Source: Neolewinella persica DSM 23188 (GTDB lineage Bacteria; Bacteroidota; Bacteroidia; Chitinophagales; Saprospiraceae). Taken from it: a stretch of DNA of 64,000 bases. Under the pieces are notes generated by a model. It saw only the letters and a list, made by a program, of their open reading frames with translations, was not told the DNA's origin and ran no database searches. The DNA is taken from NCBI RefSeq assembly GCF_000373105.1, contig NZ_KB890427.1, forward strand, positions 1 to 64,000, in the 5' to 3' direction. Below, one piece after another: positions 3,567-62,856 of the stretch (position 1 is its first letter; the number at the start of each line of letters is the position of its first letter). The position numbers and the translations under genes were made by a program.

Positions 3567-3738
3567 GGCGCGGTCGCAGGTGCAGAGGAGGGTAAAAGGA
3601 CGGGGACTAGCTCACTTTTCCCGAAATAGAAGTGTTTCCTTAAGGGCTATGCCCTTAGAAAGTCGAGGTTGCAAATAAAAAACCTCGGGCCATAGCCCTT
3701 GCTTTCTTATCCCTTTACCTTGCACCTGCGGCCGCGCC
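3567..3738. repeat. Dispersed repeat family: convergent inverted pair with hairpin interior
   Basis: Left arm GGCGCGGTCGCAGGTGCA (from 3567) and right arm ending in its near-exact reverse complement (3718-3738). The similarity extends outward into TTTTT/AAAAA and inward into GGTAAAAGGA, giving arms of about 35-40 bp. The interior carries another inverted repeat (AAGGGCTATG ... CATAGCCCTT). It lies between the DUF1800 and SpoIIM-like genes, which are both on the minus strand. Twenty arms of this family occur in the window. Confidence 0.85.
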
Positions 3739-3884
3739 AAAAAGTGAATGTAAGAATAGTGAATGAGTGATTGGCTACCGCTGTGAAGACTTTTGTACTA
3801 CGCTTGTCTGCTACGATGAGCAAGCGCAACGACGCGAACGTTGCGTACAGCAGCTATTCCCCCACTTAATTATTCAACCATTCA
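3739..3884. other. Gene gap with short inverted words
   Basis: No coding sequence seen. GTGAATGTAAGAATAGTGAA near 3743 and TTCAACCATTCACTATTCC near 3872-3890 form an imperfect inverted repeat that reaches the 3' end of the SpoIIM-like gene, so it may act as a transcription end signal for that gene. Confidence 0.45.
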
Positions 3885-5726
3885 CTATTCCACCTCCATC
3901 CCCCGAATCCGACGCTTAGCACCAAACTGCTCAATATCTTCCAGCAAACTATCCGCCCGCTCGATCTCGCGAAGCGTGTAAAAATTAAGGGCGGAGGAAA
4001 CGGCCCACATGGTGAAAACGATGCCAAACAGGAACCAGTAGGAAATGGCCTGAAGGATGACGTTTACGTTGTCGATGGTGACGGCATCTGCGTAGAAAAC
4101 CCAGTCGAGAAAGGAAAAAACCAAACTGCCAACCGCCGTGTCTAATACCCACATTGCCGGTACGGCCAGCAGTATGACCATGATGAAATTACCGTAACTC
4201 GATACTAGATTGGTGTAGACAAAGGAGAACGTTTCCCGAAAAGTAGCCAGGCCAGAATACCCGGCATAAGCAAAGGTCAGCAGGAAGGGGAGTGTCAGGA
4301 AAACGAAGAGGCCAGCAATGGCTCCGTTGAAGGCAAGGCCCGTAGCGATGGCCACACAAACGAGGTACAAAAAGGCCTCGGACCGCCAGTTCGCCGGAAG
4401 TATTTCGATGTCTGATGCCCGCCAGAAAAGCTCGAAGGAAAGCCGCAACATGCCATAAAACCCCGCAGCTACCAACAGCAGATAAATTGGCCCCCGGGAC
4501 CGGGAGAACGTCGTCGTCAACTCATGGACATTGTGGAAATCTCCAAGAATAGTGCCGTCAAATACGTAGCGCGTTGCGGAAGCTGAGTTATAAAAGAAGA
4601 AAGCCAGCGTAACGAAAACTCCGGTAATGACCGCCAGCCCACCGAAGAGGTAGCCGGGGGATCGCCGAAGCACGGCAAAGCTGGCCGTAAGCGTTTCTCC
4701 TCCTCCCCGGATCTGACGGAGGCTAACGACGTCTTCGCCGTCATCGCGTCGGCGGGCGGGGGCCTCCTCCGTTGCCCGTGGCCGGGCTGCCACCACCCGT
4801 GGATAAACGACGTAATACCAGATGATAAAGGCAAAGCAAAGTAGAATAAAAACAGCGCGGATGGCATCCGGAAGTTCTGTATGTCGGGTCAGGTAGCCCT
4901 CCAGAAAGCCGGCGATGATGAATAGCGGGACGAGTCCCAGCATGATCTTTAGTCCGTCGCGGGAGGAAGCCTTGAAAGCATCGAAGCGCGACAGGGTGCC
5001 CGGGAACAGTAGTCCCTTACCCATGGCCAGGCCGGCTCCGCCAGCCAGTATAATGCTGCTGATCTCCAGCGCGCCGTGAATCCAAATGGTCAGGAAACTC
5101 TCCTGAAACAGTCCTTTAGCATAGAAGAAATACTGGAAGACGCCCACCATTACGCCATTACGAATCAGCTGAACGATGGAACCTACGGCAAAGAAAACAC
5201 CGGAGACAAAGGTCAGCAGTGCTACAGAAATGTTGTGCAGGGTGATTTGCATCGACATTGTAAAGGGCGAGGTCTGCTTATACACCGCCATGGGATCACC
5301 TCCCTGAATGTTGGCCTCCGTCATGTTGATGTAGGCCTCCCCCATGATCGTTTCGGCGAAGGCCGGGTCAATCCGGTAACTGATGATGCCGATCAGCATC
5401 GCCAGTACGAAGGTAACCAAGGCAATGGTCAGCGGCCGCCGCTGGGCATAGACAACGCGGGGCAGTTCATCGGTCCAGAAGGAAAAGAAACGGCTGGTCT
5501 CCCCTTTGCGCCCACGGTAAATCTGCAGGAAGGTGCGTTGGGCGAGGCTGTTGAGGTACACCCGGACGGAGCGGTTGGGGTAAAAGGTCCGGGAATAGGA
5601 CAGATCATCCGTCGTATGGATATAGAGTTGCTTGAGCAATTCCGGGTTTTGCTCATCGCGTTCCAGGGCCCGCTCGTAGCGCTTCCACTTGTCCTTGTTT
5701 TTTTCGATAAAATCGGTTTCCCGCAT
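3885..5726 (-). CDS. SpoIIM (stage II sporulation protein M)-like integral membrane protein
   Basis: 613 residues. The N-terminus (MRETDFIEKNKDKWKRYERA, then a Tyr-rich YSRTFYPNRSV segment) is typical of the SpoIIM/DUF95 family in non-sporulating bacteria. About ten hydrophobic segments follow in two blocks, separated by a charged loop around residues 310-340 (ATEEAPARRRDDGEDV). The first block, residues about 95-300, is the SpoIIM-like domain; the second looks like an additional multi-pass unit. In Bacteroidota such genes often sit near MoxR/RDD/DUF58 genes; here MoxR lies 22 kb away. A TATCTTG box on the minus strand at 5731-5737 is only 4-5 nt upstream of the ATG, suggesting a very short or absent leader. 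Molecular function unknown. Confidence 0.8.
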   Translation of the reverse strand: MRETDFIEKNKDKWKRYERALERDEQNPELLKQLYIHTTDDLSYSRTFYPNRSVRVYLNSLAQRTFLQIYRGRKGETSRFFSFWTDELPRVVYAQRRPLTIALVTFVLAMLIGIISYRIDPAFAETIMGEAYINMTEANIQGGDPMAVYKQTSPFTMSMQITLHNISVALLTFVSGVFFAVGSIVQLIRNGVMVGVFQYFFYAKGLFQESFLTIWIHGALEISSIILAGGAGLAMGKGLLFPGTLSRFDAFKASSRDGLKIMLGLVPLFIIAGFLEGYLTRHTELPDAIRAVFILLCFAFIIWYYVVYPRVVAARPRATEEAPARRRDDGEDVVSLRQIRGGGETLTASFAVLRRSPGYLFGGLAVITGVFVTLAFFFYNSASATRYVFDGTILGDFHNVHELTTTFSRSRGPIYLLLVAAGFYGMLRLSFELFWRASDIEILPANWRSEAFLYLVCVAIATGLAFNGAIAGLFVFLTLPFLLTFAYAGYSGLATFRETFSFVYTNLVSSYGNFIMVILLAVPAMWVLDTAVGSLVFSFLDWVFYADAVTIDNVNVILQAISYWFLFGIVFTMWAVSSALNFYTLREIERADSLLEDIEQFGAKRRIRGMEVE

Positions 5727-5956
5727 GGTGCAAGATAGGGTTTAGGGTTCAGTTTTCAGGAATCAGGTTGCCATTACTGCAGTAGACCAGGTTCAGGGAT
5801 CATTCCCTTCTAGGTACGCCGTCGCGCGTAGCGAGATGGAGGGTTCATAAATGGATCGATCACGGAACAAAGTCGAGGCAAACCGACTGAACCCTGAGTA
5901 ATGAACCCTAAACACTGACTTCTGATTACTGAATGCTGGGCCCTGAACACTGCCTT
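5727..5956. other. Gene gap rich in repeated TTCAG/CTGAA words
   Basis: No gene seen. The stretch is made of recurring short words (GGTTCAGTTTTCAGG, CAGGTTCAGGG, ACTGAACCCTGA, TGAACACTG) that can pair with one another as imperfect hairpins. The same vocabulary recurs at 40270-40325. A -7-like box for the downstream minus-strand gene lies at its left end. Confidence 0.45.
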
Positions 5957-8218: not shown

Positions 8219-8334
8219 GGGGGGCAAGATAGCTAGTTTAAGAGGAGTGTGAAAAAGTTGCCTTGACAATAAACTTTAGTCTTGAATGGTGGTACACTAA
8301 TGGAAGCTTCTGGAAGTCTTCCTCCTCGTATTAG

Positions 8335-8388
8335 CCGTCCGACAAACTTTTGTCCGGCTTCGCCAGGCCAAAAGAATTTGTCGGACGG
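8335..8388. repeat. Strong intergenic hairpin
   Basis: CCGTCCGACAAACTTTTG at 8335-8352 pairs with CAAAAGAATTTGTCGGACGG at 8369-8388, leaving a short loop. The word CCGTCCGACGG is repeated just downstream (8397-8407), and a weaker outer inverted repeat (CTTCCTCCTCGTATTAG versus TTAGCGACGAAGGAG near 8420-8434) encloses it. It occupies the divergent gap between the TPR protein and the mutase gene; there is no T-run, so a simple terminator is unlikely. Confidence 0.7.
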
Positions 8389-12102: not shown

Positions 12103-12300
12103 ATGCCACAACCAAATAAAGATCCACAATCCCCTAAAAAAAAGGAAGACACTGCCACAGTCGCCGTATCCGAAGACTACTACTTCGACGACAACGGCCT
12201 AATGGTGATGACGGCCGCCTTTCACAGCAAGCGCGGTTTTTGCTGCGGCAACGCCTGCCGGCATTGCCCGTATGACCACGTCAACGTTACGGAGAAATGA
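12103..12300 (+). CDS. DUF5522 family small cysteine-rich protein
   Basis: 65 residues. After a charged, Lys/Pro-rich N-terminus comes DYYFDDNGLMVMTAAFHSKR and then a Cys cluster, RGFCCGNACRHCPYDH, which is the DUF5522 hallmark. Four Cys plus His in this spacing suggest a metal site (zinc or iron-sulfur), which is inference. Its stop overlaps the start of the next gene (ATGA-type overlap at 12297-12300), so translation is probably coupled to the BtuF-like protein. Function unknown. Confidence 0.85.
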   Translation: MPQPNKDPQSPKKKEDTATVAVSEDYYFDDNGLMVMTAAFHSKRGFCCGNACRHCPYDHVNVTEK

Positions 12301-13058
12301 TCACGACGACGGACCAATTGGGGACGGTGCTTGAGCTGCCGGGGATACCCCGGCGCATTGTTTGCCTGGTGCCCTCGATCACGGAGTTGTTGGTCGATTT
12401 GGGACTGGAAAGCTCGGTGGTGGGATGCACCAAATTTTGTGTCCGTCCCTCGCACCTGCGTTCCCGCCAAAAGATCGTCGGAGGTACAAAAAACGTGCGT
12501 CTGGAGAAAGTGACGGCGTTGTCTCCAGACCTGATCATCGCCAATAAGGAGGAGAATACGCAGGAGGACGTGGCGTTCCTGGCCGGGCAGTTTCGGGTGT
12601 GGGTCAGCCAGGTGAGCACCGTGGCGGAGGCAAATGAAATGATCACCAGTCTCGGCCGTCTATTCGCCGTGGAAGAACGCGCTGCGGCCATCATTACCGC
12701 CAACCGGAAGGCGCTGGAACAGCACAAATTACCGAGCCCGCAAAAAGCGCTCTACCTGATCTGGCGAGACCCATGGATGAGCGTGGGCGGAGATACTTAC
12801 ATCAGCGATGTGATGCGGGAAATCGGTTATGAAAATGTGGTAAGTGACCAGCTGCGTTATCCTACCCTTTCGGTCGAAGAGATTCGGGCTTTGGCCCCGG
12901 AACAAATCCTCCTTTCTTCCGAACCTTATCCCTTTAAAGCGGAACATTTAACCGAATGGTTGGAAATTTTGCCCCAGGCGAAAGTTGCGTTGGCTGATGG
13001 GGAATTTTTTTCCTGGTATGGGTCTCGGTTGGGGAATTTGGCAGGGCTTCTCTCTTAG
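12297..13058 (+). CDS. Cobalamin-type (BtuF-like) helical-backbone metal receptor, without signal peptide
   Basis: 253 residues. The fold signature of class III periplasmic binding proteins is clear: RRIVCLVPSITELLVDLGL at residues 19-37, VVGCTKFCVRPSHL, VGGTKNVRLEKVTALSPDLI, then a long helix, and YLIWRDPWMSVGGDTYISDV and LLSSEPYPFK in the second lobe. BtuF-like proteins normally deliver B12 or siderophore iron to an ABC importer. Here there is no signal peptide or lipobox: the protein starts MITTTDQLGTVLELPG. It is translationally coupled to the DUF5522 gene and lies just after a B12-dependent mutase, so a cytoplasmic corrinoid-handling role is possible but unproven. No btuC/btuD neighbours are present. 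Confidence 0.85.
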   Translation: MITTTDQLGTVLELPGIPRRIVCLVPSITELLVDLGLESSVVGCTKFCVRPSHLRSRQKIVGGTKNVRLEKVTALSPDLIIANKEENTQEDVAFLAGQFRVWVSQVSTVAEANEMITSLGRLFAVEERAAAIITANRKALEQHKLPSPQKALYLIWRDPWMSVGGDTYISDVMREIGYENVVSDQLRYPTLSVEEIRALAPEQILLSSEPYPFKAEHLTEWLEILPQAKVALADGEFFSWYGSRLGNLAGLLS

Positions 13059-13063
13059 AAGGT

Positions 13064-13090
13064 GGCGGGGCCGCAGGTGCAAGGGAAAGG
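13064..13090 (+). repeat. Dispersed repeat family: single arm
   Basis: GGCGGGGCCGCAGGTGCAAG followed by GGAAAGGATTAAAAG, beginning 5 bp after the stop codon of the BtuF-like gene. It has the same orientation as the left arms of the paired copies; no right arm is nearby. Confidence 0.8.
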
Positions 13091-13177
13091 ATTAAAAGAA
13101 AGAGACATGGGCAGGGATGGACTTTCGTAAAAGATGAAATTAAACAAAAATTATTTCATTAAAATACATATAAACTT

Positions 13178-19421: not shown

Positions 19422-19574
19422 GGCGCGGCCGCAGGATGCAAAATCATGGACGAAAGCAGCAAGGCACTGTTAGGGTTCCGGACCTCCCGGTCCGGATCAC
19501 GTAAGCCGGACCGGGAGGTCCGGAACCTTTTACCTTGCTCTTTTATCCCTTGCCCTTGTACCTGCGGCCCCGCC
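19422..19574. repeat. Dispersed repeat family: convergent inverted pair with GC hairpin interior
   Basis: Left arm GGCGCGGCCGCAGGATGCA (19422) and right arm CCCTTGTACCTGCGGCCCCG running to 19574. The interior contains a long perfect-looking hairpin, GGTTCCGGACCTCCCGGTCC pairing with its complement about 20 bp later (roughly 19475-19527). It lies in the gap between the divergent carbonic anhydrase and glyS genes; nothing coding is seen in the remaining gap sequence. Confidence 0.85.
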
Positions 19575-26909: not shown

Positions 26910-27055
26910 GGCGGGGGCGCAGGTGCCGGGGAAGTTGAAGGGCAAGGGGTGGTAGCACCAGCTCATTTTAGAGCTGTCCGGCACACGTGTACCTCCGGCT
27001 TCAGCCGGATTGGTCCCTGCTCCTTCTACTCATTCCCATGCACCCGCGTCCCCGC
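26910..27055. repeat. Dispersed repeat family: convergent inverted pair
   Basis: Left arm GGCGGGGGCGCAGGTGCCGG (26910-26931) and right arm CCCATGCACCCGCGTCCCCG ending at 27055. The interior has a small CCGGCTTCAGCCGG hairpin. It lies in the roughly 410-bp gap between the MBL hydrolase and MoxR genes, both on the minus strand. The rest of the gap holds no supportable gene; its right end is made of CTACTTCACTAC/GACTACTTGACTAA words. Confidence 0.8.
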
Positions 27056-27245
27056 AAAAAAACGCGCATGGTTACCACCAATGGTCATTACGTTTGCCCA
27101 AGTGAGCCACCTGCGCCAGAATTGAAAACGAGCTTCGGTTATTGTCCAAAGTTACGGGCAAAGGTCAACTATTCCGTAAGAACGAAGTGAGCACTCCCAT
27201 GCGGTAGCACTACTTCACTACAAGACGATCTGACTACTTGACTAA

Positions 27246-31438: not shown

Positions 31439-31462
31439 GGCGCGGCCGCTGGTGCAAGGGGA
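31439..31462 (+). repeat. Dispersed repeat family: single arm beside the tandem array
   Basis: GGCGCGGCCGCTGGTGCAAG followed by GGGAGG, with one change from the usual core (CTGG for CAGG). It stands between the terminator and the 31-bp tandem repeat; no convergent partner is near. Confidence 0.8.
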
Positions 31463-31512
31463 GGGATGAAGGAGCAGGTTGCAGAGGTTGCAGAGGTTGC
31501 AGGAGGTGCAAC

Positions 31513-33539: not shown

Positions 33540-34223
33540 ATGTCTCAGTCTTCCTCCGATCGCCTCATCAGTCGTATCAATGCCTTACATAAAAGCCTGC
33601 AGTTGGATGCGGGAGGAAAACTTTCCGCAATGGAACGCGATCTGATGCTGGGGTACCTGCGAGAGTTGTATGAACTATACGCTACGCATGGTGAGGCTCC
33701 TGCAAAAGTGGTGGCTGCGCCACCATCTGCTCCACCGCCAGCTCCTACACCTCCCCCTGCTCCTGCGCCCGCGCCTCCTCCGCCTCCGGTTGTGGAAGTG
33801 CCCAAGCCGACACCTCCACCACCGCCCCCACCGGCACCCGTGGTGGAGACGCCTAAGCCAGCACCTCCACCGCCGCCACCAGCGTCGGCCCCAACGCCAG
33901 CTCCGGCCATCAATACCTCTCTTAGTTCGGATTTAAGGGACTTGTTTTCTGAAGACGATCTCGCCAGTCCTTTCGGCCGTCAGCCTTTAGCTGATCTTAC
34001 CCGATCTCTGACGATCAACAACCGGGTACTGTTCAGTAAGGATCTGTTTGGAGACGATAATGACCTGTTGAACACCACCCTGAGGACCCTGAATTCATCA
34101 GGTTCCATGGCTGCCGCTCAGCCAGTAATGGTCAGCCTGGCTCGCCGGTTTGAATGGGCGGATGAGAGCAAAAAAGAAACCGCCAGGGAATTCATCGAAT
34201 TAGTTCGTCGTCGTTATGCTTAA
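33540..34223 (+). CDS. Hypothetical protein with proline-rich central linker
   Basis: 227 residues in three parts. A helical N-terminus (residues 1-55, LISRINALHKSLQLDAGG, LMLGYLRELYELYATHG) leads into a linker of about 70 residues made almost only of Pro, Ala and Val (PPPAPTPPPAPAPAPPPPP). A conserved-looking C-terminal domain follows from about residue 125 (LRDLFSEDDLASPFGRQPLA, LTINNRVLFSKDLFGDDND, FIELVRRRYA). There is no signal peptide. The C-terminal pattern of a disordered spacer followed by a small helical domain is common in Bacteroidota cytoplasmic proteins. It overlaps the next gene by 8 bp. Function unknown. Confidence 0.75.
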   Translation: MSQSSSDRLISRINALHKSLQLDAGGKLSAMERDLMLGYLRELYELYATHGEAPAKVVAAPPSAPPPAPTPPPAPAPAPPPPPVVEVPKPTPPPPPPPAPVVETPKPAPPPPPPASAPTPAPAINTSLSSDLRDLFSEDDLASPFGRQPLADLTRSLTINNRVLFSKDLFGDDNDLLNTTLRTLNSSGSMAAAQPVMVSLARRFEWADESKKETAREFIELVRRRYA

Positions 34224-39335: not shown

Positions 39336-39357
39336 GGCGCGGGCGCGGGTGCAAAGG
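39336..39357 (+). repeat. Dispersed repeat family: single arm upstream of the esterase gene
   Basis: GGCGCGGGCGCGGGTGCAAA followed by GGAAAGGTTGAAAGGGCAA. It lies 37 bp upstream of the esterase start codon. An oppositely oriented arm at 41202 could be its partner, which would place the barrel and agmatinase genes between arms. Confidence 0.8.
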
Positions 39358-39425
39358 AAAGGTTGAAAGGGCAATGAGAAGCCCCGTGCGGAGCCCTTTG
39401 GGCAAGAGCGTACACACGTCTTTAC

Positions 39426-41103: not shown

Positions 41104-41201
41104 GGTGAATGAGTGAATAAAAGAATGGGTGAAGGAGGGAATATACCACCCTTAGCTTCGATCTGTGAGCATGTCTGGTCGAAGCTTGCCCATCCATTTA
41201 A

Positions 41202-41222
41202 CTTGTACCTGCGTTCGCGCCC
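41202..41222 (-). repeat. Dispersed repeat family: single arm, reverse orientation
   Basis: CTTGTACCTGCGTTCGCGCC is the reverse-complement form of the core with a T/A change. It lies in the gap between the divergent agmatinase and small membrane protein genes. Confidence 0.7.
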
Positions 41223-41470: not shown

Positions 41471-43062
41471 TGCAACTGCCATTTTCCACCCGCTGGTTAT
41501 TACCGTTGGCGCTGTTCCTGGGCCTGGCGCTGCGCGTACCGGGGTGGTTTACTCAAGACATGAAGGACGACTGGGTAACCTTCGAGCCAGATGAGGGCCA
41601 GCATGTCCACATCGCCATCACCCGCTACAATGACCTGCAAAGTGGTCCGGACATCGGTGATTATAAAAACCCGCCCTGGAACGTCCGTGGCTACGGTCAC
41701 CTCATGGCCTACGTAGCTTACGGCTGGTATTCGCTGGCCGACCGGCCGCCAGGGTACCACGATTTTATTTTACTTGGCCGTCAGCTGTCCACCGTATTCT
41801 CTTTATTATTGATCGTTGTGGTCTGGGCTATGGGCCGCGCCAGCGGCCTGAGTCCTCCCATGGCCGGCGTAGCCGCCCTGTTAATGGCGGCTTGCGACGT
41901 CAACGCTACTTACAGCCATTATTGCCTGCCAGCTTCCGGTTATATTTTCTGGAGCTACCTGGCTGTTTTAGGCAGTATTCGATTTGCCCGCTCAGCGGCA
42001 GACGACAAACGAGACATCGTCAGCCTACTCTTATTGGCGCTGGGTACCGCCGGAGCCATGGCTTTTAAATTTGACGTGTTGCCCTTTGCCTGGGGCGGAC
42101 TTTTTCTCCTCTATCTCGCCATCACCCGCCGCATTTCCTGGTGGTACGTGGTGCTCGGGATCGCCTTGGTGGCTGGCTTCATCGCCTCCTTCGTCTACGG
42201 CTGGTCGTGGAACAATATTCAGTCGACCTTCCGAACCCTGAGCAAGCTCAACCGGGAAGGCGTTCCGGTTGATGACCACTTTCGGGACAACCTCATTGTT
42301 TACCCTGCCGGCGTCATTGCAGGTATCGGCTTACCCGTTTTTGGTCTTGCATTGTATGGCTTGCGCAAGCTTTTTCGGGGCGGGGACGCAGGAGCAAATG
42401 AAGAAACTGAAAAGCAGGGTTGGGCGAAGCCTCGTCGTTGGCTCCTGCTTTACCTCTTCGGCTGGTTAGCCACGGAGTTCCTCGTTCGCTGGTCGGTGGA
42501 TACTGCCTTCATTCGCCGGGTCAACATCTTTATGCCGGCAGTGTGTTTGCTGGCGGCTTACGGCCTGCAATGGTTTAAAAACCGCCCGTGGCTGCCTGCG
42601 GCAGTCCTTGCCTACACCCTGGCTTTTGCCGTCGTGGGCCAGAGTAACCACTGGTTTGATTCCCGCTACGCCATGCGCGAGTTCGTGAACAACGAACTCC
42701 CCGCCGACGCTAAAGTCGCCGTTTCCGGCTATGTCCAGCATAAAAACCTGCGTCGTACCCGTTTCTTTATGGACATTGACTGGGATTACGCCATCCTCCA
42801 CGAAACGTATTTCAGCCGCTACTACAAGAGTATGACTACTCCTTTCGGCCTCCCGGCCTGTTGCGAGGAGGTGTACAACTGCAATAAAGTCGAAGAGTGT
42901 GAGCTGATGCAGCAACTGCTTACCGGCCAGGCAGACGACGCGCGGCTGCTGCGCGCCTTCCGGCCGCGCAACATCTTTCCCGAACGCGTCCTCTACGCCC
43001 ACTTTTTTGGCAATTTTGAAACCTTCCTGGGGCAAACCTTAGTCTACGAACGGGTGAGGTAG
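41470..43062 (+). CDS. GT39 / ArnT-like membrane glycosyltransferase
   Basis: 530 residues from the ATG at 41470. It has about ten to eleven membrane helices, starting at TRWLLPLALFLGLALRVPGW. The first periplasmic loop has the conserved acidic pair in TFEPDEGQHVHIA, characteristic of dolichol/undecaprenyl-phosphate-sugar protein mannosyltransferases and ArnT enzymes. Later helices (GVAALLMAACDVNATYSHYC, FDVLPFAWGGLFLLYLAIT, RVNIFMPAVCLLAAYGLQWF) fit the GT-C fold. It presumably transfers a sugar from a lipid carrier outside the inner membrane; acceptor unknown. A copy of the dispersed repeat is translated in frame in the loop near residue 305 (GGDAGANEETEKQG). Confidence 0.82.
   Translation: MQLPFSTRWLLPLALFLGLALRVPGWFTQDMKDDWVTFEPDEGQHVHIAITRYNDLQSGPDIGDYKNPPWNVRGYGHLMAYVAYGWYSLADRPPGYHDFILLGRQLSTVFSLLLIVVVWAMGRASGLSPPMAGVAALLMAACDVNATYSHYCLPASGYIFWSYLAVLGSIRFARSAADDKRDIVSLLLLALGTAGAMAFKFDVLPFAWGGLFLLYLAITRRISWWYVVLGIALVAGFIASFVYGWSWNNIQSTFRTLSKLNREGVPVDDHFRDNLIVYPAGVIAGIGLPVFGLALYGLRKLFRGGDAGANEETEKQGWAKPRRWLLLYLFGWLATEFLVRWSVDTAFIRRVNIFMPAVCLLAAYGLQWFKNRPWLPAAVLAYTLAFAVVGQSNHWFDSRYAMREFVNNELPADAKVAVSGYVQHKNLRRTRFFMDIDWDYAILHETYFSRYYKSMTTPFGLPACCEEVYNCNKVEECELMQQLLTGQADDARLLRAFRPRNIFPERVLYAHFFGNFETFLGQTLVYERVR
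42377..42400 (+). repeat. Dispersed repeat family: degenerate copy inside the glycosyltransferase gene
   Basis: GGGGCGGGGACGCAGGAGCA followed by AATGAAGAAACTGAAAAG keeps the core and polypurine tail (AGG-AGCA for AGGTGCA). It is read as FRGGDAGANEETEKQ in a hydrophilic loop between membrane helices, where an insertion would be tolerated. Confidence 0.55.
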
Positions 43063-45559: not shown

Positions 45560-45655
45560 GGCGCGGACGCGGGTGCAAGGTAAGGTACTTTAAGCGCAGG
45601 GAGCATACCTAAACCTTCAATGCCCTTAACCTTCCCTTGCACCTGCGGCCCCGCC
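45560..45655. repeat. Dispersed repeat family: shortest convergent inverted pair
   Basis: Left arm GGCGCGGACGCGGGTGCAAG then GTAAGG (45560-45585), right arm CCCTTGCACCTGCGGCCCCG to 45655. Only about 48 bp lie between the arms. It fills the gap between gnd and the membrane protein gene, both on the minus strand. Confidence 0.85.
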
Positions 45656-48746: not shown

Positions 48747-48802
48747 CCATTTATTTATTTTTATCATCCCAAAGATTATCAACCCATGCTTCTTTATACC
48801 TC

Positions 48803-48824
48803 CCCCCGCACCCGCGTCCGCGCC
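48803..48824 (-). repeat. Dispersed repeat family: single arm, reverse orientation
   Basis: CCCCCGCACCCGCGTCCGCG followed by CC. It lies just before the ATG at 48834. If translation began at the earlier ATG (48786), the arm would be read as TSPRTRVRAL ahead of the signal peptide. Confidence 0.8.
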
Positions 48825-48833
48825 CTGAAAAAA

Positions 48834-49319
48834 ATGCTCCGGGCTGGCTTGGTGATTTATTTCGCCTTTGTCCTGAGTTCGGTTCTTACCGCTCAGGAAT
48901 TGAGTCGTAGTGTGGTCGGTTCCGCCGGCAGCTACTTCTCTGCGGTTAACGTAGGAAACATCCACTTTACCGTCGGTGAAATCGCGATTGACCGGACGAC
49001 GAACGGTCTTATTCTCGAACGTGGATTTCACCACGGCATCTACGAATTATTGAGTACTTCCGTGTGGTCTTCCCCCGAGATAAACCTGGACATTACGGTG
49101 TTCCCTAATCCTACTGCCGATTTAGTCAACCTCAGGGGAGACTGGAAACACGATGATCAACTAAGGGTGACCGATCTACTTGGCCGACACTTAGTGGAGC
49201 GCGTACTGCCCCTGGAACGCGCGGAAGTTTCGTTGGCAACCTACCCTTCAGGCACCTACTTTTTTACGATCCTGCGGGAGGGGCGGCCATTGAAAAGCTT
49301 GCGGGTAATCCGGAGATAA
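48834..49319 (+). CDS. Small secreted protein with T9SS type A sorting domain
   Basis: 161 residues from the ATG at 48834; the alternative ATG at 48786 adds 16 basic residues made of repeat sequence. Signal peptide MLRAGLVIYFAFVLSSVLTA with cleavage before QELSRSVV. The short mature part (SYFSAVNVGNIHFTVGEIAI) is typical of Bacteroidota proteins that are little more than a beta domain. The type A sorting domain follows: VFPNPTADLVNLRGDW, then YPSGTYFFTI and the basic end LKSLRVIRR. It is secreted or surface anchored by T9SS, and has the same direction as the type B protein 87 bp upstream. Confidence 0.83.
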   Translation: MLRAGLVIYFAFVLSSVLTAQELSRSVVGSAGSYFSAVNVGNIHFTVGEIAIDRTTNGLILERGFHHGIYELLSTSVWSSPEINLDITVFPNPTADLVNLRGDWKHDDQLRVTDLLGRHLVERVLPLERAEVSLATYPSGTYFFTILREGRPLKSLRVIRR

Positions 49320-49441: not shown

Positions 49442-49471
49442 GGCGGGGCCGCAGGTGCGAGGAAAGGTTAA
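49442..49471 (+). repeat. Dispersed repeat family: single arm
   Basis: GGCGGGGCCGCAGGTGCGAG followed by GAAAGGTTAA and GGCAAGG. It lies between the terminator and the tail-fiber-like gene; a longer reading frame from 49381 runs through it, but the signal peptide starts only at 49573. Confidence 0.8.
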
Positions 49472-49572
49472 TGGCAAGGTTTTTTGCCGGGTTAAACATT
49501 TTTCGCGAAAAGTGTAACGCATGGGGTCCACCTGGCATGAAAGGGAAAGACATCATCCCAAATATATTATCC

Positions 49573-52432: not shown

Positions 52433-52475
52433 ACGGCACCATCCGGCTCCAGAGCTGGAGGTGCCGTATTTTTTT
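52433..52475 (+). terminator. Rho-independent terminator of the tail-fiber-like gene
   Basis: ACGGCACC ... GGTGCCGT closes a two-step stem with inner CTCCAG/CTGGAG, followed by ATTTTTTT. It abuts the left arm of the next dispersed repeat. Confidence 0.85.
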
Positions 52476-52743
52476 GCGCGGTCGCAGGTGCAGGACTCGG
52501 GCAAGGGGGGGCTGGGAGTGGGTAGGATGGCACTTTTTTAGAAAGTGCTTTGACTCTTGTAGTAGCCCGTACTTCTACGGAAGTACGAGGATGGGACTTG
52601 CTGAAAGTACTTTGAATGCTGTAGTAACCCGTACTTCTACGGAAGTACACCCTGCACTTTTCGGAAGTACACCAACCCCGCCGCATTCATCAAGTGCTTC
52701 CCCGCCTTCTCTTTTACCGTACCCCCGCACCCGCGTCCGCGCC
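52475..52743. repeat. Dispersed repeat family: longest convergent inverted pair with internal palindromes
   Basis: Left arm TGCGCGGTCGCAGGTGCA (52475) and right arm CCCCCGCACCCGCGTCCGCG to 52743. The interior carries two copies (52569-52586 and 52631-52648) of the near-palindrome GTACTTCTACGGAAGTAC inside a longer GTAGTAACCC-type duplicate, plus a third TTCGGAAGTAC half. It fills the gap between the tail-fiber-like and MFS genes, and no gene is seen there. Confidence 0.85.
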
Positions 52744-55861: not shown

Positions 55862-55870
55862 TCGCACACG

Positions 55871-56950
55871 TTATAGCCGCTTCATCAAGCGATCAGGCTC
55901 GTAGGAGCGACGATAACCAATTACCCGCCCATCTGCACTCCGCTCAAAGGTGACTGTGTCACCTCCCACATCCTTGAATACGTCCTTCGCTTCGAAATAA
56001 AGAGGAAAGCGTAATTCCCGAAAGATGGCCTCCAATCCCCTGTCGCGTGCGTTGTACCGGATTTGTAATTCCGGTAAGTTCCAGTGCTCATAAATACCTA
56101 CGTACTCAGACAATACTGCTTCCGCAGGAATCTGGCGGTACGGATCGTCAGACGACAACAATAGCCCGTCTGCCGGTTGCCAGTTGTCGTATTCCATATT
56201 ATAGGCCGTAGCCCGGGCAGCATTATACCCTTTGAGTTTTGCTACCAGGTGAAGGGCACCGTCAATGCCGGCACTGATGCCTGCCGTGGAGATTACGTTG
56301 CCATTATCGACGTAGCGAACATCACGTAGCACCTTAATTTTTGGATAGCTTTCTTCCAGGTAGTCCAGTGTGTTGTGGAAGGTGGTAGCGGTTTTACCGT
56401 CCAGTATGCCGGCTTCTGCGAGGATAAGGGCACCGGTACAGACGGAGAAATGTAGTTGGGTGTTCTCCTGATGGCGAATCCAGTTGGTGACGGCGGTATC
56501 CTGGCTGGTGTTGAATCCGTTACCTCCAAATACGGCGATGATGTCGGCTTCGGGAGCATCCTCCAGGCTGTAATCAGGGAGGACCTTCAATACACCTTGG
56601 GAAATGATCGGATCCAGGCTCTTCGAAACGGTGAAGACTTTAAAACCGGCGTAGGTGAGTACTTCCAGTGGGCCGGCAAAGTCCAGGACTTCTACACCGG
56701 ATTGGAGGTAGAAGGCGATAGTAGTAGGGGCTTCAGGCTGAGGCTCCAACGAGTCTTGGTGAACCAGCGTCATGGAGCAGTGCGGACATTTTCCTGCCTC
56801 CCCAAACTTCAATTCGTCACAAACACTATTGCAGGGAGGGCAGACGTAAGCTAGGTTATTTTTCAGTGTTTCTGCCATTGGTGATTGGGCGAGGACGCAG
56901 GTGCAAAGGAAGAAGGTAAAGAGCAAGATTTGGATACGGAGCATAAGCAT
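55871..56950 (-). CDS. Exported DJ-1/PfpI family protein with N-terminal metal-binding and C-terminal accessory domains
   Basis: 359 residues. Signal peptide MLMLRIQILLFTFFLCTCVL (cleaved near AQ). Next is a short zinc-ribbon-like domain, residues about 33-65, with YVCPPCNSVCDELKF and GKCPHCSMTLV (two CxxC pairs). The DJ-1/PfpI domain, residues about 75-260, has GVEVLDFAGPLEVLTYAGF and nucleophile elbow FSVCTGALILAEAGILDG, as in GlxA/AraC-type amidase-like domains. A C-terminal domain of about 90 residues (QIRYNARDRGLEAIFRELRF) ends the protein. Part of the signal peptide is encoded by a copy of the dispersed repeat. Possible roles are stress or metal-related protein/metabolite repair; no DNA-binding domain is present. 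Confidence 0.82.
   Translation of the reverse strand: MLMLRIQILLFTFFLCTCVLAQSPMAETLKNNLAYVCPPCNSVCDELKFGEAGKCPHCSMTLVHQDSLEPQPEAPTTIAFYLQSGVEVLDFAGPLEVLTYAGFKVFTVSKSLDPIISQGVLKVLPDYSLEDAPEADIIAVFGGNGFNTSQDTAVTNWIRHQENTQLHFSVCTGALILAEAGILDGKTATTFHNTLDYLEESYPKIKVLRDVRYVDNGNVISTAGISAGIDGALHLVAKLKGYNAARATAYNMEYDNWQPADGLLLSSDDPYRQIPAEAVLSEYVGIYEHWNLPELQIRYNARDRGLEAIFRELRFPLYFEAKDVFKDVGGDTVTFERSADGRVIGYRRSYEPDRLMKRL
56887..56920 (+). repeat. Dispersed repeat family: arm inside the DJ-1 signal peptide coding region
   Basis: GGGCGAGGACGCAGGTGCAA followed by AGGAAGAAGGTAAA, with a single A in the core (GGCGAGG). Read on the minus strand it encodes the residues around LFTFFLCTCVLAQ, the hydrophobic core of the signal peptide. 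Confidence 0.75.
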
Positions 56951-58264: not shown

Positions 58265-58459
58265 GGTCAACCTTTACAGGAACAAGTCGTCTTTATTAGT
58301 AATCGTCAGGGAATTCAGAACAAAAACGGTCTGTTTCGGCCGATGACAGAATTTCCTAACAAGCACTTAACGACAGATTACCTACCTTGTGCCACAGTCT
58401 TAGCGTCAGCCCTATTTAAGAATACCGGGAACATTTATAATTGAAATTAACCTCAAACC
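58265..58459. other. Gap before the lysine-tailed protein gene
   Basis: No gene seen. GGGAATTCAGAACAAAAACGG and GACAGAATTTCC words suggest weak hairpins. The immediate upstream region of the GTG start is AT-rich (AACATTTATAATTGAAATTAA) and probably holds the promoter, but no exact -7 box is present. Confidence 0.35.
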
Positions 58460-59287
58460 GTGAACGAGAACATCGCCTTTCTAGAATTGAAATATGGGAA
58501 CATCTACGGAGGCTACCCAAATTTTTACGCCATCAGTGAAATCGCACTGCTCGTCTTTGAGCGGGGCTCTAACAAAATCTTCCTCGAAAGCTGGATCAAT
58601 CAGGCTAACGTAGACATCGTAGATGTTTACGCCGAGACGGACGAACTTGGCCACACAACCCGCCGGGTGCGGGAAGTGCTCAACATGCGCAGCAACCGTC
58701 GGTTCCGCTACGAAGAAGACTTCCGCCTTGAAGAAGAAGAACTGCAGTATGCATTCCGTAATCTGCGGTCCACTAAAATGGCCGTTCGGAACTTTTTGCT
58801 GAAAAACCTGCGCAAATACCGTTTTGATGACCTTATCGTCTTTGATGGTCGTCGGGATATTTTTCTTTGTGAGCGTTCCGGCGTCGACTTCAGTTACGTC
58901 AACATCATCGACATCCAGAAGGACCTGAACCGGGAAACCGACTACCTCTTCAGCCTCAACAAACTGGCGAAGGTGATCGACTTTCATACCGATCGCTCGT
59001 ACCTGCGCTCTAATAATCTCGAGTACTGGTTGCACCCGATTGCTGCCCGGCAGATTGTCCCAGGTACCGCGGCCTTTGATGCGGCACGCCTGCTGATGGT
59101 CTTTAACGAGTACACCGAAGTGCATGATGACTTCATGATCAAGGCAGCCATTTTGCTGAATAAGATTCAGAAGCGGAAGGATGAGGAAAAGGCGCTCAAG
59201 GAAGCAAATCCAGAACCCGAACCAGCGCCATCAGAGGAAAAAAAGAAACCTAAGGCTAAGAAAAAGGCTGCTAAGGAAGAAGAGTAA
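58460..59287 (+). CDS. Hypothetical protein, possibly a degenerate exonuclease-fold domain with Lys-rich tail
   Basis: 275 residues, GTG start. The body (1-235) reads FLELKYGNIYGGYPNFYAIS, EIALLVFERGSNKIFLES, LIVFDGRRDIFLCERSGVDF, NIIDIQKDLNRETDYLFSLN and AFDAARLLMVFNEYTEVHDD. This order of strands resembles a DEDD-type 3'-5' exonuclease fold, but the first acidic pair (DxE) appears as ELK, so catalysis would be lost; the resemblance is only visual. The last 50 residues are Lys/Glu/Pro/Ala-rich (PAPSEEKKKPKAKKKAAK), a possible nucleic-acid-binding tail. Unknown function. Confidence 0.7.
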   Translation: MNENIAFLELKYGNIYGGYPNFYAISEIALLVFERGSNKIFLESWINQANVDIVDVYAETDELGHTTRRVREVLNMRSNRRFRYEEDFRLEEEELQYAFRNLRSTKMAVRNFLLKNLRKYRFDDLIVFDGRRDIFLCERSGVDFSYVNIIDIQKDLNRETDYLFSLNKLAKVIDFHTDRSYLRSNNLEYWLHPIAARQIVPGTAAFDAARLLMVFNEYTEVHDDFMIKAAILLNKIQKRKDEEKALKEANPEPEPAPSEEKKKPKAKKKAAKEEE

Positions 59288-59361
59288 TTTTTCGTCAAAA
59301 AATCAATGGTTCACAGTAGTCGATAGTGCACAATAGTGCCTGTCGACTACTGAACCAATGA

Positions 59362-61158
59362 TTATTTGACGAGTAACTGTTCTTCGTACATTTTCCGAAA
59401 CCCATCACTCTGTTCCAGCAGTTCTTCCAAGGCGCCCTCCGCTTTTACCCGGCCATCTTCCATATAGTAAATGTAATCGAAGAAGCGTAAGAGATGGAGC
59501 CGGTGCAGCGTGGAGACGATGGTTTTGTCGGGAAAGGCCTTGAAAAGACGTTCATAAACCATGATCTCTGTCTGTGGGTCGAGGCTGCTGGTTGGTTCAT
59601 CGAGCAACAAAAGAGTTGAAGTGTCAGCTGCCAGCAGGCCTCGGGCGATGCTGAAGCGCTGACGCTGCCCACCACTGAGGTTAGCGCCGCCTTCGGCCAG
59701 GAAGGTATCTATGCCGTCTTCAGCCTGATTGATCACGTCTTCCAGTACAGAAATATAGATGGCTTGATCGAGTTCTTCTGGTTGGCGTTCCAGCCCAACG
59801 GTAAGGTTGTTACGGATGGTCTCCTCGAAAATTTCCGGGCTTTGCGGAATTAAGGTAGTTTGCTCAAACAGTTGAGCGGGAGATTCAGGCGCGGCCGCAG
59901 GTGCAGGGGAAGTGTGATTAAACAGCAGGCGCATCTCTTCCGGCGGGTACAGCCCGCGAAGGGTGTAAAGCGTCGTTGTTTTACCGCTCCCGCTGGGCCC
60001 GATAAGGGCAATACGTTTGCCCCGATCCAGTTGTAGGTTAACGTCGAATATCCCGGCACCATCCTCAGCATAACGGAAGTTTAGCCCCTCTACCCGCAGC
60101 TTCTCCCACACTCTTCGGATGGGGCTGTTCGCGACAGGAGGTGCATGCTCAGCATAGGCGGTGTAAATGGGCTCAATCGCCGCCAAATCAGACCTGAATT
60201 TTATGATCTGATTGTACTGCATAGTCATACCACTAAGCATGTTCGTAAATTGGGTGATGTAACCAATCAGTGTTACCAGCCCACCCACTAAAAATACTTC
60301 GCCCGGGATGTAATTGAGGTAAATATAGCCCGTTACCAATACGGCATACATCAGACCTGACAGTACCGTAACGGAAAACCACTTGGCTTCATTCATCTTG
60401 GTATTACGGAGAAATGGGGGCCAAATGTTTTCTATCCGTTGGCGAATTCTTTCGGCCGTCCGGCGACCCAGCCGCAAAGTGGTAACGGTAATGATGTTAC
60501 TGAGGTTATCAGACAGGCTGGCCTGAAGCTCGTTTTCCCGATCATTAGTTTCCATGTTGGCCCTGATGATGGGCTCGTCAAAGGCCAGCACGGCCAGCAA
60601 AATAATGACCCCAAACACCGCTGCAATGGCGCCGAATAATGGAGAAAACCACATGATGGCTCCGATGGCAATCAGGATGCGGGCAACTGTCTGGAAGTAG
60701 GCAAAGCCGTAGTCAAAGAACGTTTTCAGCGCCTCGTAGGCCTTTCGGGCCCGGTTGATGGTGTCGCCACTGTGGTGCTCCCGATGCCAGGCCAGGGGCA
60801 GGTGGATTATTTTGTCATAGCTTTCCATCAATAGCCGTTGACTCAGGTCGAAGGCCATTCGCCGTTCCAGCAACCGGGCCGGCCACTGAAGGGTCCAGAA
60901 TGCAAGGGTGATGGCCAGGTAAATTGACACATAAATCAACGTTCCCTGCATTGGATCCCCTTCCCCTTTTTGCAGGAAATTGATGTACAGGCCATAGATG
61001 ATTGGGGGGATCGACACCAAAATGTTCACACCAGTAAACATGAGGTATATGAGCACATACTTCCCGCGCATGCCTTTGGCATATCGCCAGGCGAAACTGA
61101 GCAGGTATTTGTACGGGTTTTCCCGGACTAGATTACTGATGGTGGAGAGGTAAGACAT
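59362..61158 (-). CDS. ABC exporter, fused membrane and ATPase domains
   Basis: 598 residues. An ABC_membrane domain with about six helices (residues about 15-330) is followed by a nucleotide-binding domain (about 365-590). Walker A LIGPSGSGKTTTLY, Q-loop TTLIPQSPEIFE, signature NLSGGQRQRFSIARGLL and Walker B LLLLDEPTSSLDPQ are intact. It is a homodimeric exporter of unknown substrate. Between Walker A and the Q-loop, where family members have a short ID-G-x loop, the residues NHTSPAPAAAPESP are encoded by a copy of the dispersed repeat (59888-59912). The gap on the 3' side has CAGTAGTCGATAG/CTGTCGACTACTG inverted words that may end transcription. Confidence 0.92.
   Translation of the reverse strand: MSYLSTISNLVRENPYKYLLSFAWRYAKGMRGKYVLIYLMFTGVNILVSIPPIIYGLYINFLQKGEGDPMQGTLIYVSIYLAITLAFWTLQWPARLLERRMAFDLSQRLLMESYDKIIHLPLAWHREHHSGDTINRARKAYEALKTFFDYGFAYFQTVARILIAIGAIMWFSPLFGAIAAVFGVIILLAVLAFDEPIIRANMETNDRENELQASLSDNLSNIITVTTLRLGRRTAERIRQRIENIWPPFLRNTKMNEAKWFSVTVLSGLMYAVLVTGYIYLNYIPGEVFLVGGLVTLIGYITQFTNMLSGMTMQYNQIIKFRSDLAAIEPIYTAYAEHAPPVANSPIRRVWEKLRVEGLNFRYAEDGAGIFDVNLQLDRGKRIALIGPSGSGKTTTLYTLRGLYPPEEMRLLFNHTSPAPAAAPESPAQLFEQTTLIPQSPEIFEETIRNNLTVGLERQPEELDQAIYISVLEDVINQAEDGIDTFLAEGGANLSGGQRQRFSIARGLLAADTSTLLLLDEPTSSLDPQTEIMVYERLFKAFPDKTIVSTLHRLHLLRFFDYIYYMEDGRVKAEGALEELLEQSDGFRKMYEEQLLVK
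59888..59912 (+). repeat. Dispersed repeat family: arm translated inside the ABC exporter
   Basis: GGCGCGGCCGCAGGTGCAGG followed by GGAAG. Read on the minus strand it gives SPAPAAAP in a loop between Walker A and the Q-loop of the ATPase domain. The reading frame is preserved and all catalytic motifs are intact. Confidence 0.85.
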
Positions 61159-61193
61159 TTTGGTCTATTGGTCAGTTGGGCTTCTGGGAAATA

Positions 61194-61227
61194 GGAAGCC
61201 CGACCCACGCTTGCGAATCGGGCTTCC
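61194..61227. repeat. Perfect 10-bp hairpin
   Basis: GGAAGCCCGA (61194-61203) pairs with TCGGGCTTCC (61218-61227) over a 14-nt loop, in the gap between YqeY and the ABC exporter, both minus strand. Neighbouring words GGTCTATTGGTCAGTTGG belong to the recurring gap vocabulary. Confidence 0.6.
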
Positions 61228-61315
61228 GGAATTTGCGTTTATTAATCTATTCTGGAATAGTCATTGGGCGAGAGTTCCAAAATGCGGTAGCTCCTAATAG
61301 CACCAATAGTACCAA

Positions 61316-61762
61316 TTAACCAAGCTTAGCCTTCACCATTGATGCAATCGTTTTACCATCGGCGCGGCCGGCAGCTTCCTTATTAGCCATGCCCATTACG
61401 CGGCCCATGTCCTTCATGGAACTGGCACCGGTTTTGGAGATGATGCCTTCGATCATGGCAGCCAGGTCTTCGTCAGACAGCTGTTCAGGAAGGTATTTGC
61501 TGATGACTTCAATTTCCTCCCGTTCGGTAACGGCGAGGTCCTCGCGATTTTGCTTTGTGTAGATGTCTAAACTGTCTTGCCGGCTTTTGACCAGCTTCTG
61601 CAGCATAGAGATTTCGCCAGCCTCGTCCAGGGTAGTACCTGTACCGTCGGTTTTCTGTAGCATGATTGCACTCTTGATGGCACGGATGCCACGCAAGCTT
61701 ACTTTGTCTTTTGCCTTCATGGCCGTTTTCATGTCGGCGGTGATGCGCTCTTCTAGCGTCAT
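61316..61762 (-). CDS. GatB/YqeY domain-containing protein
   Basis: 148 residues, the standard YqeY length and composition: LEERITADMKTAMKAKDKVS, LRGIRAIKSAIMLQKTDG, ISMLQKLVKSRQDSLDIYTK, YLPEQLSDEDLAAMIEGII and DMGRVMGMANKEAAGRADGK. The domain resembles the tRNA-binding tail of the GatB amidotransferase subunit; stand-alone YqeY is thought to interact with tRNA. Cytoplasmic. Possibly upstream in the same transcript as the ABC exporter. Confidence 0.92.
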   Translation of the reverse strand: MTLEERITADMKTAMKAKDKVSLRGIRAIKSAIMLQKTDGTGTTLDEAGEISMLQKLVKSRQDSLDIYTKQNREDLAVTEREEIEVISKYLPEQLSDEDLAAMIEGIISKTGASSMKDMGRVMGMANKEAAGRADGKTIASMVKAKLG

Positions 61763-61840
61763 GGTAGGGGGAGTTTTATTACTTAGTGGTAACGCTTTTA
61801 CTACCGTTGAAGGTTGCGAAGGGAGTGAATGGGAGAATTA

Positions 61841-61909
61841 GTGAAGGAGAGAATGGCTGCCGCACGAGCAGAGCGAGCGTCTTTGTGCGACAGCCATTCT
61901 CCCCTTCAC
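61841..61909. repeat. 17-bp intergenic inverted repeat between YqeY and hisIE
   Basis: GAGAATGGCTGCCGCAC (61849-61865) and GTGCGACAGCCATTCTC (61885-61901) are inverted copies with one mismatch; flanking GTGAAGGA/CCCTTCAC extend it. It is just upstream of the YqeY gene and downstream of hisIE on the minus strand, a candidate hisIE terminator. Confidence 0.65.
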
Positions 61910-61921
61910 CCAATCGATCAA

Positions 61922-62536
61922 TCACTTATGTCGTGAGCGCAGCACCTCCCGGACATCTTCCAGCGAATAGCCCTTAGCGGCCAGTAGCACGATATAGTGG
62001 TACATAAGGTCGGCAGCCTCTCCCAGGAAGAGGTCCCGGTCGTTGTCTTTTGCTTCGATCACGAGTTCAACGGCTTCTTCTCCAACTTTCTGAGCGACCT
62101 TATTGATGCCCCGGGCAAGCAGTTGGCTCGTATAGCTTTTTTCGCTGGGGTTGTCTCGTCGGTGCTGGATGGTACGCTCCAGGTGATCAAGAAACTCTCC
62201 CCGGTTAGCCTTGTTCCAGCAGGTATCGGCGCCGGTGTGGCAAGTGGGGCCGTCTGGCCGCGCCTGGATGAGGAGACTATCATTGTCACAGTCGGCGGAT
62301 ACGCTAACGAGGTGGAGGTAGTTTTTGCTGCTCTCTCCTTTAGTCCAAAGGCGTTGCTTGGACCGGCTGAAGAAAGTGACTTTACCTGTTTCCAGGGTTT
62401 TGTCAAGCGCTTCCCGGTTCATATAGCCCTGCATCAGGACTACGCGTGTGGCAGCATCCTGAATGATGGCGGGCAGGAGGCCGTCGGGGGATTTGTCGAA
62501 GGCTAGTTGGTCTAGATTGTCCGGTGAAACGGTCAT
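61922..62536 (-). CDS. hisIE: Bifunctional phosphoribosyl-AMP cyclohydrolase / phosphoribosyl-ATP pyrophosphohydrolase
   Basis: 204 residues from the ATG at 62536. The HisI half (residues about 15-105) has VVLMQGYMNREALDKTLETG, VTFFSRSKQRLWTKGESSKN, SADCDNDSLLIQ (metal Asp/Cys) and GPTCHTGADTCW. The HisE half (about 115-200) has LERTIQHRRDNPSEKSYTSQ, LLARGINKVAQKVGEEAVEL and DLFLGEAADLMYHYIVLLAA. It catalyses steps 2 and 3 of histidine synthesis. No other his gene is near, so the pathway is split in this genome or the rest lies outside the window. Confidence 0.95.
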   Translation of the reverse strand: MTVSPDNLDQLAFDKSPDGLLPAIIQDAATRVVLMQGYMNREALDKTLETGKVTFFSRSKQRLWTKGESSKNYLHLVSVSADCDNDSLLIQARPDGPTCHTGADTCWNKANRGEFLDHLERTIQHRRDNPSEKSYTSQLLARGINKVAQKVGEEAVELVIEAKDNDRDLFLGEAADLMYHYIVLLAAKGYSLEDVREVLRSRHK

Positions 62537-62554
62537 ATTGCGGTAAATTGGCTG

Positions 62555-62562
62555 CAAATTTA
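62555..62562 (-). promoter_or_regulatory. Predicted -7 box of hisIE
   Basis: On the minus strand TAAATTTG is an exact TAnnTTTG match ending 18 nt before the hisIE ATG. It overlaps the leader of the divergent small gene. Confidence 0.5.
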
Positions 62563-62567
62563 CCTAA

Positions 62568-62856
62568 ATGCTTATGGAAAACCCGGTTAATACGGAAGAT
62601 GACTTACAACTGTCTACCGAAGATCTGGAGAATCTCAAGAAAGCTGGCAAATGGGGTAAATTCATTTCTATTGTCGTCGCCCTCAACGCTGCTGTATTTG
62701 GGGGCGTTTTATTCACCGGGACCATTATTTCCGGAGGTTATGCCGGTCAAAGCTCTAGGGTTTATCTATTTACTTACTCTGCTTCGTTTTGACATTGCTT
62801 GCAGGCTTGGGTATCAAGTGGCCATATTCTTGAGGGCGGGGCCGCAGGTGCGATGA
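62568..62856 (+). pseudogene. Small membrane protein gene, apparently frameshifted (DUF5362-like)
   Basis: The 74-codon frame from 62568 starts MLMENPVNTEDDLQLSTEDL, then ENLKKAGKWGKFISIV, which resembles the start of small DUF5362-type membrane proteins, and ends at 62792. The next frame, +1 relative, continues with hydrophobic FIYLLTLLRFDI and VAIFLRAG until a stop at 62856, as expected for the second helix of that family. A frameshift around 62745-62765 would split one gene. Its 3' end runs into a single arm of the dispersed repeat (62835-62855) and the transposase region. The family match is weak, so it could also be an intact 74-codon gene. Confidence 0.4.
62835..62855 (+). repeat. Dispersed repeat family: single arm next to a transposase
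   Basis: GGCGGGGCCGCAGGTGCGAT followed by G. About 115 bp before the transposase start. The intervening sequence has a GAGGGGAT-GA-ATCCCCTC hairpin near 62892. Confidence 0.75.

Follow-up and report, generated by a model that had tools for sequence, protein, structure and literature searches.

Uptake sequences are a textbook example of how bacteria recognize their own kind in gene exchange. The uptake signal sequences (USS) of the Pasteurellaceae and the DNA uptake sequences (DUS) of the Neisseriaceae are described, in the parts of the literature drawn on here, as evenly distributed, as lying in open reading frames to 65%/35% and as forming dialects (PMC7811141, PMC1939737, PMC3630211). According to an excerpt of PMC3630211, only Neisseria and the Pasteurellaceae require such sequences, and the DUS receptor ComP is, as stated in an excerpt of PMC12616744, a type IV minor pilin. 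Here we analyze a stretch of 64 kb from Neolewinella persica DSM 23188 (contig NZ_KB890427.1, positions 1 to 64,000; "the window"), part of a genome of 7.08 Mb in 84 contigs, in which an original prediction, made from the letters alone, had pointed to an abundant, apparently undescribed family of short dispersed repeats with convergent arms. We propose that this motif probably serves Neolewinella as a DNA uptake sequence in the manner of DUS and USS, since its abundance, its sites within genes, its even spacing, its positions in core genes and its dialects are published traits of the two systems. The literature searched, which was mostly open-access and excluded preprints, gave neither a description of the family nor any account of uptake sequences from Bacteroidetes/Bacteroidota or Lewinella.

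Results

Abundance and anatomy of the motif

The core, GGCGCGGNCGCAGGTGCA, scored with up to three mismatches, gave 21 matches in the window against 0.30 expected, a value that none of 100 shuffles reached, in agreement with the roughly 20 copies that had been predicted. Across the genome, where up to two mismatches were allowed and the reversed pattern served as background control, there are 1811 core sites against 6 reversed-pattern matches; the extrapolation to over a thousand copies thus held, and the count is not one of background. A sample of 1.262 Mb, which also underlies the pair, strand and spacing statistics below, contains 349 sites (162 perfect, 120 with one mismatch and 67 with two). 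An arm profile built from 237 sites finds 22 sites in the window at E ≤ 1, gaining position 19422, where the core carries one extra base; a match at 33775 (E=0.22), in GC-rich repeat-like sequence, is probably a look-alike.

Per-position counts over 146 sites show a T-tract upstream of the core at -6 to -2, a core (GGCGSGGNCGCAGGTGCA) in which most positions are near invariant while position 4 is C or G and position 7 is free, and a purine-rich stretch on the 3' side; the sharpness of the core is exaggerated in these counts and in the profile, because sites were pre-selected for the core. A GCARG box begins 14–18 nt past the core, with 140 matches over 349 sites. The predicted arm of core and polypurine tail is therefore present in both its parts, and is refined to a unit of about 46 bp that comprises T-tract, 18-bp core, purine stretch and GCARG box. 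USS cores, too, have T-rich or A-rich flanks.

Further over-represented words were seen in the N. persica genome (AATCGAGAATC and AACCCGACAAC, in C1:1-200000) and in the sample of a relative, G014 (ACTCCCGACTC).

Sites within genes and in orthologs

Gene context was analyzed for 249 sites at E ≤ 0.05 in 862 kb, using a simple purpose-made gene caller. Intergenic sites are in the majority (166/249), and one in the window, at 52475, sits after a terminator-like hairpin and T-run, both of which would suit a transcriptional element such as a terminator, an attenuator or a regulator site. We regard this as very improbable: site density is highest in divergent gaps (1.42 per kb), intermediate in tandem ones (0.90) and lowest in convergent gaps (0.69), which disfavors terminators, and 83 of the 249 sites lie inside called genes, 33 of them in sense and 50 in antisense orientation. 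These are read as GAAAGA, LARTRVQG, SAPAAAPK and similar peptides, and in about 15 cases the reverse strand of the motif ends an N-terminus that resembles a signal peptide (e.g. LLLCTCGPAQ). Some coincide with naturally similar peptides, for example in a protein read as SusC-like, and single in-gene cases should therefore not be over-read.

When N. persica genes in the 862 kb were compared to 394 kb of G014, 87 ortholog-like matches were obtained. The motif occurs in 13 of the 87 N. persica genes, and 10 of these 13 share it with their G014 counterpart, where its orientation is the same and its position identical or close; in no case (0/87) was it present in the G014 gene alone. One of the ten shared sites (C2:35596) is displaced by about 10 codons, and some align poorly near the site. 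Two of the three misses in G014 are N-terminal sites, one of them with a G014 site directly beside it, and probably lie outside the aligned part. Intergenic sites are less stable between the two species than in-gene sites: within 37 conserved neighborhoods, one was present in both, three in N. persica only and five in G014 only. In a gene read as FtsX-like (C2:46265), the site of another relative, G013, has 22 of 24 bases equal and the same length, while the rest is 63% identical. Over the orthologs, 175 of 198 core positions are identical as compared to 1229 of 1853 in the flanks, a comparison skewed by the choice of both sites for their match to the consensus.

One genus, three forms of the motif

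We scanned 59 relatives, 20 from the same genus and 39 from other genera. The former hold 11 to 1550 matches to the main form (reversed controls reach up to 31) and the latter at most 25 each; the motif is a feature of Neolewinella alone. When named genomes were scanned, the matches listed were mostly in Neolewinella, Lewinella and Saprospiraceae, with one metagenome-assembled genome of the Bacteroidia and scattered single matches in unrelated, mostly GC-rich genomes.

Three members of the genus set depart from the main form, in two different ways. G010 has only 11 main-form sites, and its commonest over-represented word is CAAAGTAGCARTG; GGCTNNCAAAGTAGCARTG, preceded by a T-tract, occurs 1072 times there, as against 0–5 copies per genome in 36 others and 0–3 within the genus. 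In 200 kb of G010, 31 of 59 such sites lie in called genes, one of them within GFKVAVIVNDMSEVN, which is read as a conserved NTPase segment. A third form, GGGCGSCGGRGCGCRGGW, is found 716 times in G001 and 822 times in G006 (controls 4 and 42), genomes in which the main form has 22 and 102 sites, respectively. It stands beside the main form with 186–312 copies in seven other species and is near its control in others, such as G011 (119 versus 114). If every one of the 21 genus genomes is represented by whichever of the three forms is most frequent in it, values range from 333 (G015) to 1811 (N. persica). Thus, a single genus employs three forms of the motif, that is, dialects.

Spacing and strand

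Sites are typically spaced about 4 kb apart. Collapsed units are more evenly distributed than random ones, with a coefficient of variation of 0.565 as compared to a simulated mean of 0.908 and a minimum of 0.746 in 500 simulations that kept the same coding/intergenic split. Close neighbors tend to lie on opposite strands: 52 of 60 at 460–2000 bp and 69 of 96 at 2–4 kb do so, values that none of 2000 label shuffles reached, while 65 of 114 at 4–8 kb and 11 of 20 beyond 8 kb were reached by 167 and 781 of the 2000 shuffles. Same-strand neighbors less than 2 kb apart number 3 on the plus and 4 on the minus strand, against exponential expectations of 24.0 and 32.0. Below 3 kb there are 18 in N. 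persica (shuffle mean 82.3, minimum 60 of 1000), 9 in G014 (mean 26.2, minimum 17) and 3 in G010, whose motif is different (mean 12.7, minimum 5), all these means being raised by the close convergent pairs. At 460–2000 bp, the counts are 19 opposite and 1 same in G014, and 6 opposite and 1 same in G010. This avoidance would fit a reader that acts on one side of the motif, with a reach of about 3 kb.

The same features could be those of a chromosome-organizing or recombination punctuation, in which an intracellular protein binds oriented sites every few kb, be it as anchors of loops, as nucleoid sites or as a directional signal like Chi. Even spacing of units, same-strand avoidance over about 3 kb together with convergent pairs, and sites common to orthologous genes all speak for such a non-uptake role in the chromosome, which is the main rival of an uptake sequence. 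We nevertheless consider it unlikely: a sister species carries a different motif at more than 1000 sites, and a replacement on that scale is hard to reconcile with an essential binding protein. The sample has no large-scale strand bias either (167 plus and 182 minus sites), whereas Chi sites are strand-biased, and only 5–8 bp long.

Convergent pairs and their interiors

The sites in the window are as follows.

3567..3612, plus: motif site, left arm of a convergent pair (172 bp); core and profile, E=1.2e-7
3693..3738, minus: motif site, right arm of the pair; core and profile, E=2.8e-9
12423..12468, minus: motif site inside the periplasmic-binding-protein gene 12297-13058; core and profile, E=8e-4
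13064..13109, plus: solo motif site directly past the stop of gene 12297-13058; core and profile
19422..19467, plus: motif site with one extra core base, left arm of a pair; profile, E=0.019
19529..19574, minus: motif site, right arm of the pair; core and profile
26910..26955, plus: motif site, left arm of a pair; core and profile
27011..27056, minus: motif site, right arm of the pair; core and profile
31439..31484, plus: solo motif site, intergenic; core and profile
39336..39381, plus: solo motif site, intergenic; core and profile
41176..41221, minus: solo motif site, intergenic; core and profile
42379..42424, plus: motif site inside the called gene 41506-43062, read as GGDAGAN; core and profile
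45560..45605, plus: motif site, left arm of an abutting pair (96 bp); core and profile
45610..45655, minus: motif site, right arm of the abutting pair; core and profile
48779..48824, minus: motif site at the 5' end of the called gene 48786-49319; core and profile
49442..49487, plus: solo motif site, intergenic; core and profile
52475..52520, plus: motif site, left arm of a pair; core and profile
52698..52743, minus: motif site, right arm of the pair; core and profile
56888..56933, plus: motif site whose reverse strand gives the signal-peptide end LCTCVLAQ of the DJ-1/PfpI gene 55871-56950; profile
59888..59933, plus: motif site read as SPAPAAAP, inside the ABC_tran match of the ABC transporter gene 59362-61158; profile
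62835..62880, plus: solo motif site near a transposase-like gene at the window edge; core and profile

All five pairs named at the outset are present with their cores outward. The singles were also recovered, with the reverse ones a few bases off (41221, 48824), and a site on the minus strand at 12468 had been overlooked. In the larger sample, neighbors 61–460 bp apart are convergent (+-) in 44 of 49 cases, divergent in 4 and on the same strand in 1, and three additional divergent neighbors lie at most 60 bp apart; the polarity of the pairs is far from random, strong but not absolute. The shortest pairs cluster at 92–97 bp from core to core, which corresponds to two arms abutting tail to tail, and one pair measures 77 bp.

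The abutting pairs are palindromes, as could be expected of an old mobile element, namely a miniature inverted-repeat transposable element (MITE), a repetitive extragenic palindromic (REP) sequence or bacterial interspersed mosaic element (BIME), or an RPE-like palindrome, most copies of which would have decayed to single arms. Two convergent sites about 880 bp apart on C28 (L035, 1135-2012) indeed flank a partial match to a Y1 transposase, along with short repeats. We give this explanation little credence. Pair interiors differ in sequence, as had been noted: 31 of 44 match nothing else in the sample, 13 contain fragments of other dispersed repeats, and none (0/44) is common whole to different pairs, contrary to what a MITE should give. 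Seven Y1 (IS200-type) loci contain 7 arms at E<1e-3 in 23.2 kb, which is about background, so that a link to a REP-associated tyrosine transposase (RAYT) was rejected. Unshared interiors, in-gene sites, their recurrence in G014 orthologs, sister motifs, even spacing and same-strand avoidance leave the suggested MITE- or REP-like architecture with cargo poorly supported.

Two other interpretations of the pairs were dropped. A composite cassette does not fit, because interiors are unshared and several convergent neighbors at kb scale lie together inside a single host gene (e.g. C2:30845/32843 and C2:76565/77918). Neither did a hairpin constraint within pairs emerge, as tail likeness was 9.82 of 25 positions within the same pair versus 8.98 between different pairs, and core positions 4 and 7 agreed in 24 and 17 of 44 pairs versus 21.8 and 14.9 expected.

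Other dispersed short repeats sometimes lie between two motif sites, as at C2:106890-107318, the interior of which has 35 matching pieces, and in the window at 26910-27056 and 52475-52743. The transposase-like gene 62971-64000, cut by the end of the window, matches Tnp_DNA_bind with 23.5 bits, just below the cut-off of 24, and adjoins just one of the window's motif sites.

Candidate uptake machinery

ComEC was found in 16 of 16 genomes and DprA in 6 of 6. A search of 8 genomes for the T2SSE/PilB/PilT family gave short, weak matches (at best 24.9 bits, over about 83 of 370 positions), with 3 of the 8 just reaching the cut-off of 24.9; as judged from these matches, the genomes are without a clear type IV pilus ATPase, and in this they depart from the pilus-based USS and DUS systems. 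Riemerella, in the parts of PMC8459023 used here, transforms without a recognizable pilus and needs ComEC, DprA, ComF and RecA, as well as a helix-hairpin-helix protein, a DUF1343 protein and a DUF5689 surface protein whose gene lies beside that of an outer-membrane protein. G010 carries, at C115:5673-10592 (L349), genes for a TonB-receptor-like channel and a DUF5689 protein that resemble the Riemerella transformation operon. This pair was seen in 6 of 6 genomes from other genera, strongly in four and weakly in two.

Discussion

As a DNA uptake sequence, the motif would act as follows. A receptor on the cell surface would favor DNA that contains the motif of about 46 bp; this DNA would be taken up and then pass through ComEC as a single strand, which would be handled by DprA and RecA and recombined at the homologous locus. 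Since DNA with a better motif would enter more often, copies would accumulate wherever genes tolerate them, in intergenic DNA, signal peptides, linkers and permissive loops, and dialects could arise because the motif of each lineage follows its receptor. More specifically, though here we are doubtful and advance the idea tentatively, Neolewinella may possess an independent, pilus-free Bacteroidota uptake-sequence system that is directional, with DNA entering from one side of the site, so that a nearby site on the same strand (within less than about 3 kb) adds nothing while an opposite one does, and in which the differing specificity of G010 goes with the channel/DUF5689 pair.

Several points weigh against an uptake role. 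The receptor, the uptake preference and the drive are elements that we infer for Neolewinella, and ComEC and DprA, being near-universal, say little. In a search of 12 of the 21 genus genomes, the channel/DUF5689 pair was found in G010 but not in the 11 that use the main or third form; these species could thus lack an uptake gate, and the apparent link between motif type and outer-membrane genes comes from one contrast only. Among candidates for a replacement receptor, weak matches on C20 of N. persica and C2 of G006, read as a TonB-receptor-like gene beside a hydrolase-like gene, were not retained, and none is named. The uptake of DNA by H. influenzae is unaffected by USS orientation, as stated in an excerpt of PMC1939737, and the excess of convergent pairs is a feature that the proposal does not account for. 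In three genomes from other genera that carry the channel/DUF5689 pair (G021, G023 and G033; 100 kb sampled from each), no word of similar prominence emerged; G021 has some moderately enriched words (CGGCCTGCA). Units are scarcer at low GC (1 unit in 4 counting windows below 0.46 and 11 units in 12 at 0.46–0.49, as compared to 1.38–1.64 per counting window above 0.49; 207 in all), which, because the motif is GC-rich, lends weak support to a shortage of the motif in newly acquired DNA, and ordinary genes, without evident mobile elements, occupy three of the longer stretches devoid of the motif (10 proteins, Pfam), giving no support to the idea that such stretches are mobile islands.

The origin of the sites also belongs here, as USS arise by point mutation and not by insertion, according to the part of PMC7811141 consulted. 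Nine in-gene sites were compared to G014, G013 and G010, counting an ortholog as lacking the core if it had at least 5 mismatches. This gave 13 comparisons from 7 genes, 7 of them with the distant member G010. Four are gap-free at the core, namely C3:82270 (G010), C1:269321 (G014) and the sulfatase-like C1:187414 (G014 and G013), and nine are gapped. Over a wider stretch, the N. persica protein exceeds its ortholog by 3 to 14 codons in 8 of 13, has the same length in 2 and is shorter in 3. Longer proteins at the site would suit a mobile element, but the differences vary instead of matching one element size or one inserted unit, and four comparisons have no gap at the core. Sites seem to favor loops of changing length in these alignments, which are mixed as to an origin by substitution or by insertion.

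If the motif is an uptake sequence, it would represent a third origin of such sequences, and the first in Bacteroidota found in the literature searched. With specificities that differ within a single genus, one could then ask whether turnover of the motif is driven by changes in the receptor. Little is known of the outer-membrane gate for DNA in this phylum; the motif could be used as bait to find a receptor there, and also as a practical tag in work on the transformation of these marine bacteria. Same-strand avoidance provides a quantitative signature to look for in Haemophilus and Neisseria, and would bear on the polarity of uptake.

Among known systems, Chi sites are likewise oriented and occur once per few kb, and GCAGGTG resembles E. 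coli Chi; the Neolewinella motif, however, is much longer, has balanced and alternating strands, and varies by species. REP/BIME elements also combine dispersed singles with inverted pairs and variable spacers. Unlike those with a RAYT, our motif shows no Y1 transposase association, has many in-gene sites and encloses unshared interiors. DUS of the Neisseriaceae are similar in their dialects among related species and in their core-genome, coding and intergenic sites, in an excerpt of PMC3630211; in Neolewinella, by contrast, G010 has a dialect with a different core, most pairs are 92–460 bp and tail-to-tail, and a clear pilus ATPase was not found in the 8 genomes searched. As compared to USS, the motif occurs in a different phylum, is unrelated and longer (about 46 bp with an 18-bp core), is spaced at about 4 kb versus about 1 kb, avoids same-strand neighbors and is accompanied by no clear type IV pilus ATPase in those 8 genomes; point-mutation origin is reported for USS, whereas alignments in Neolewinella are mixed and the uptake role is one that we infer. 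The likeness to the USS of Pasteurellaceae, as these are described in the parts of PMC1939737, PMC7811141 and PMC3630211 used here, lies in more than 1000 dispersed copies, many of them in genes, in even spacing and in the existence of subtypes.

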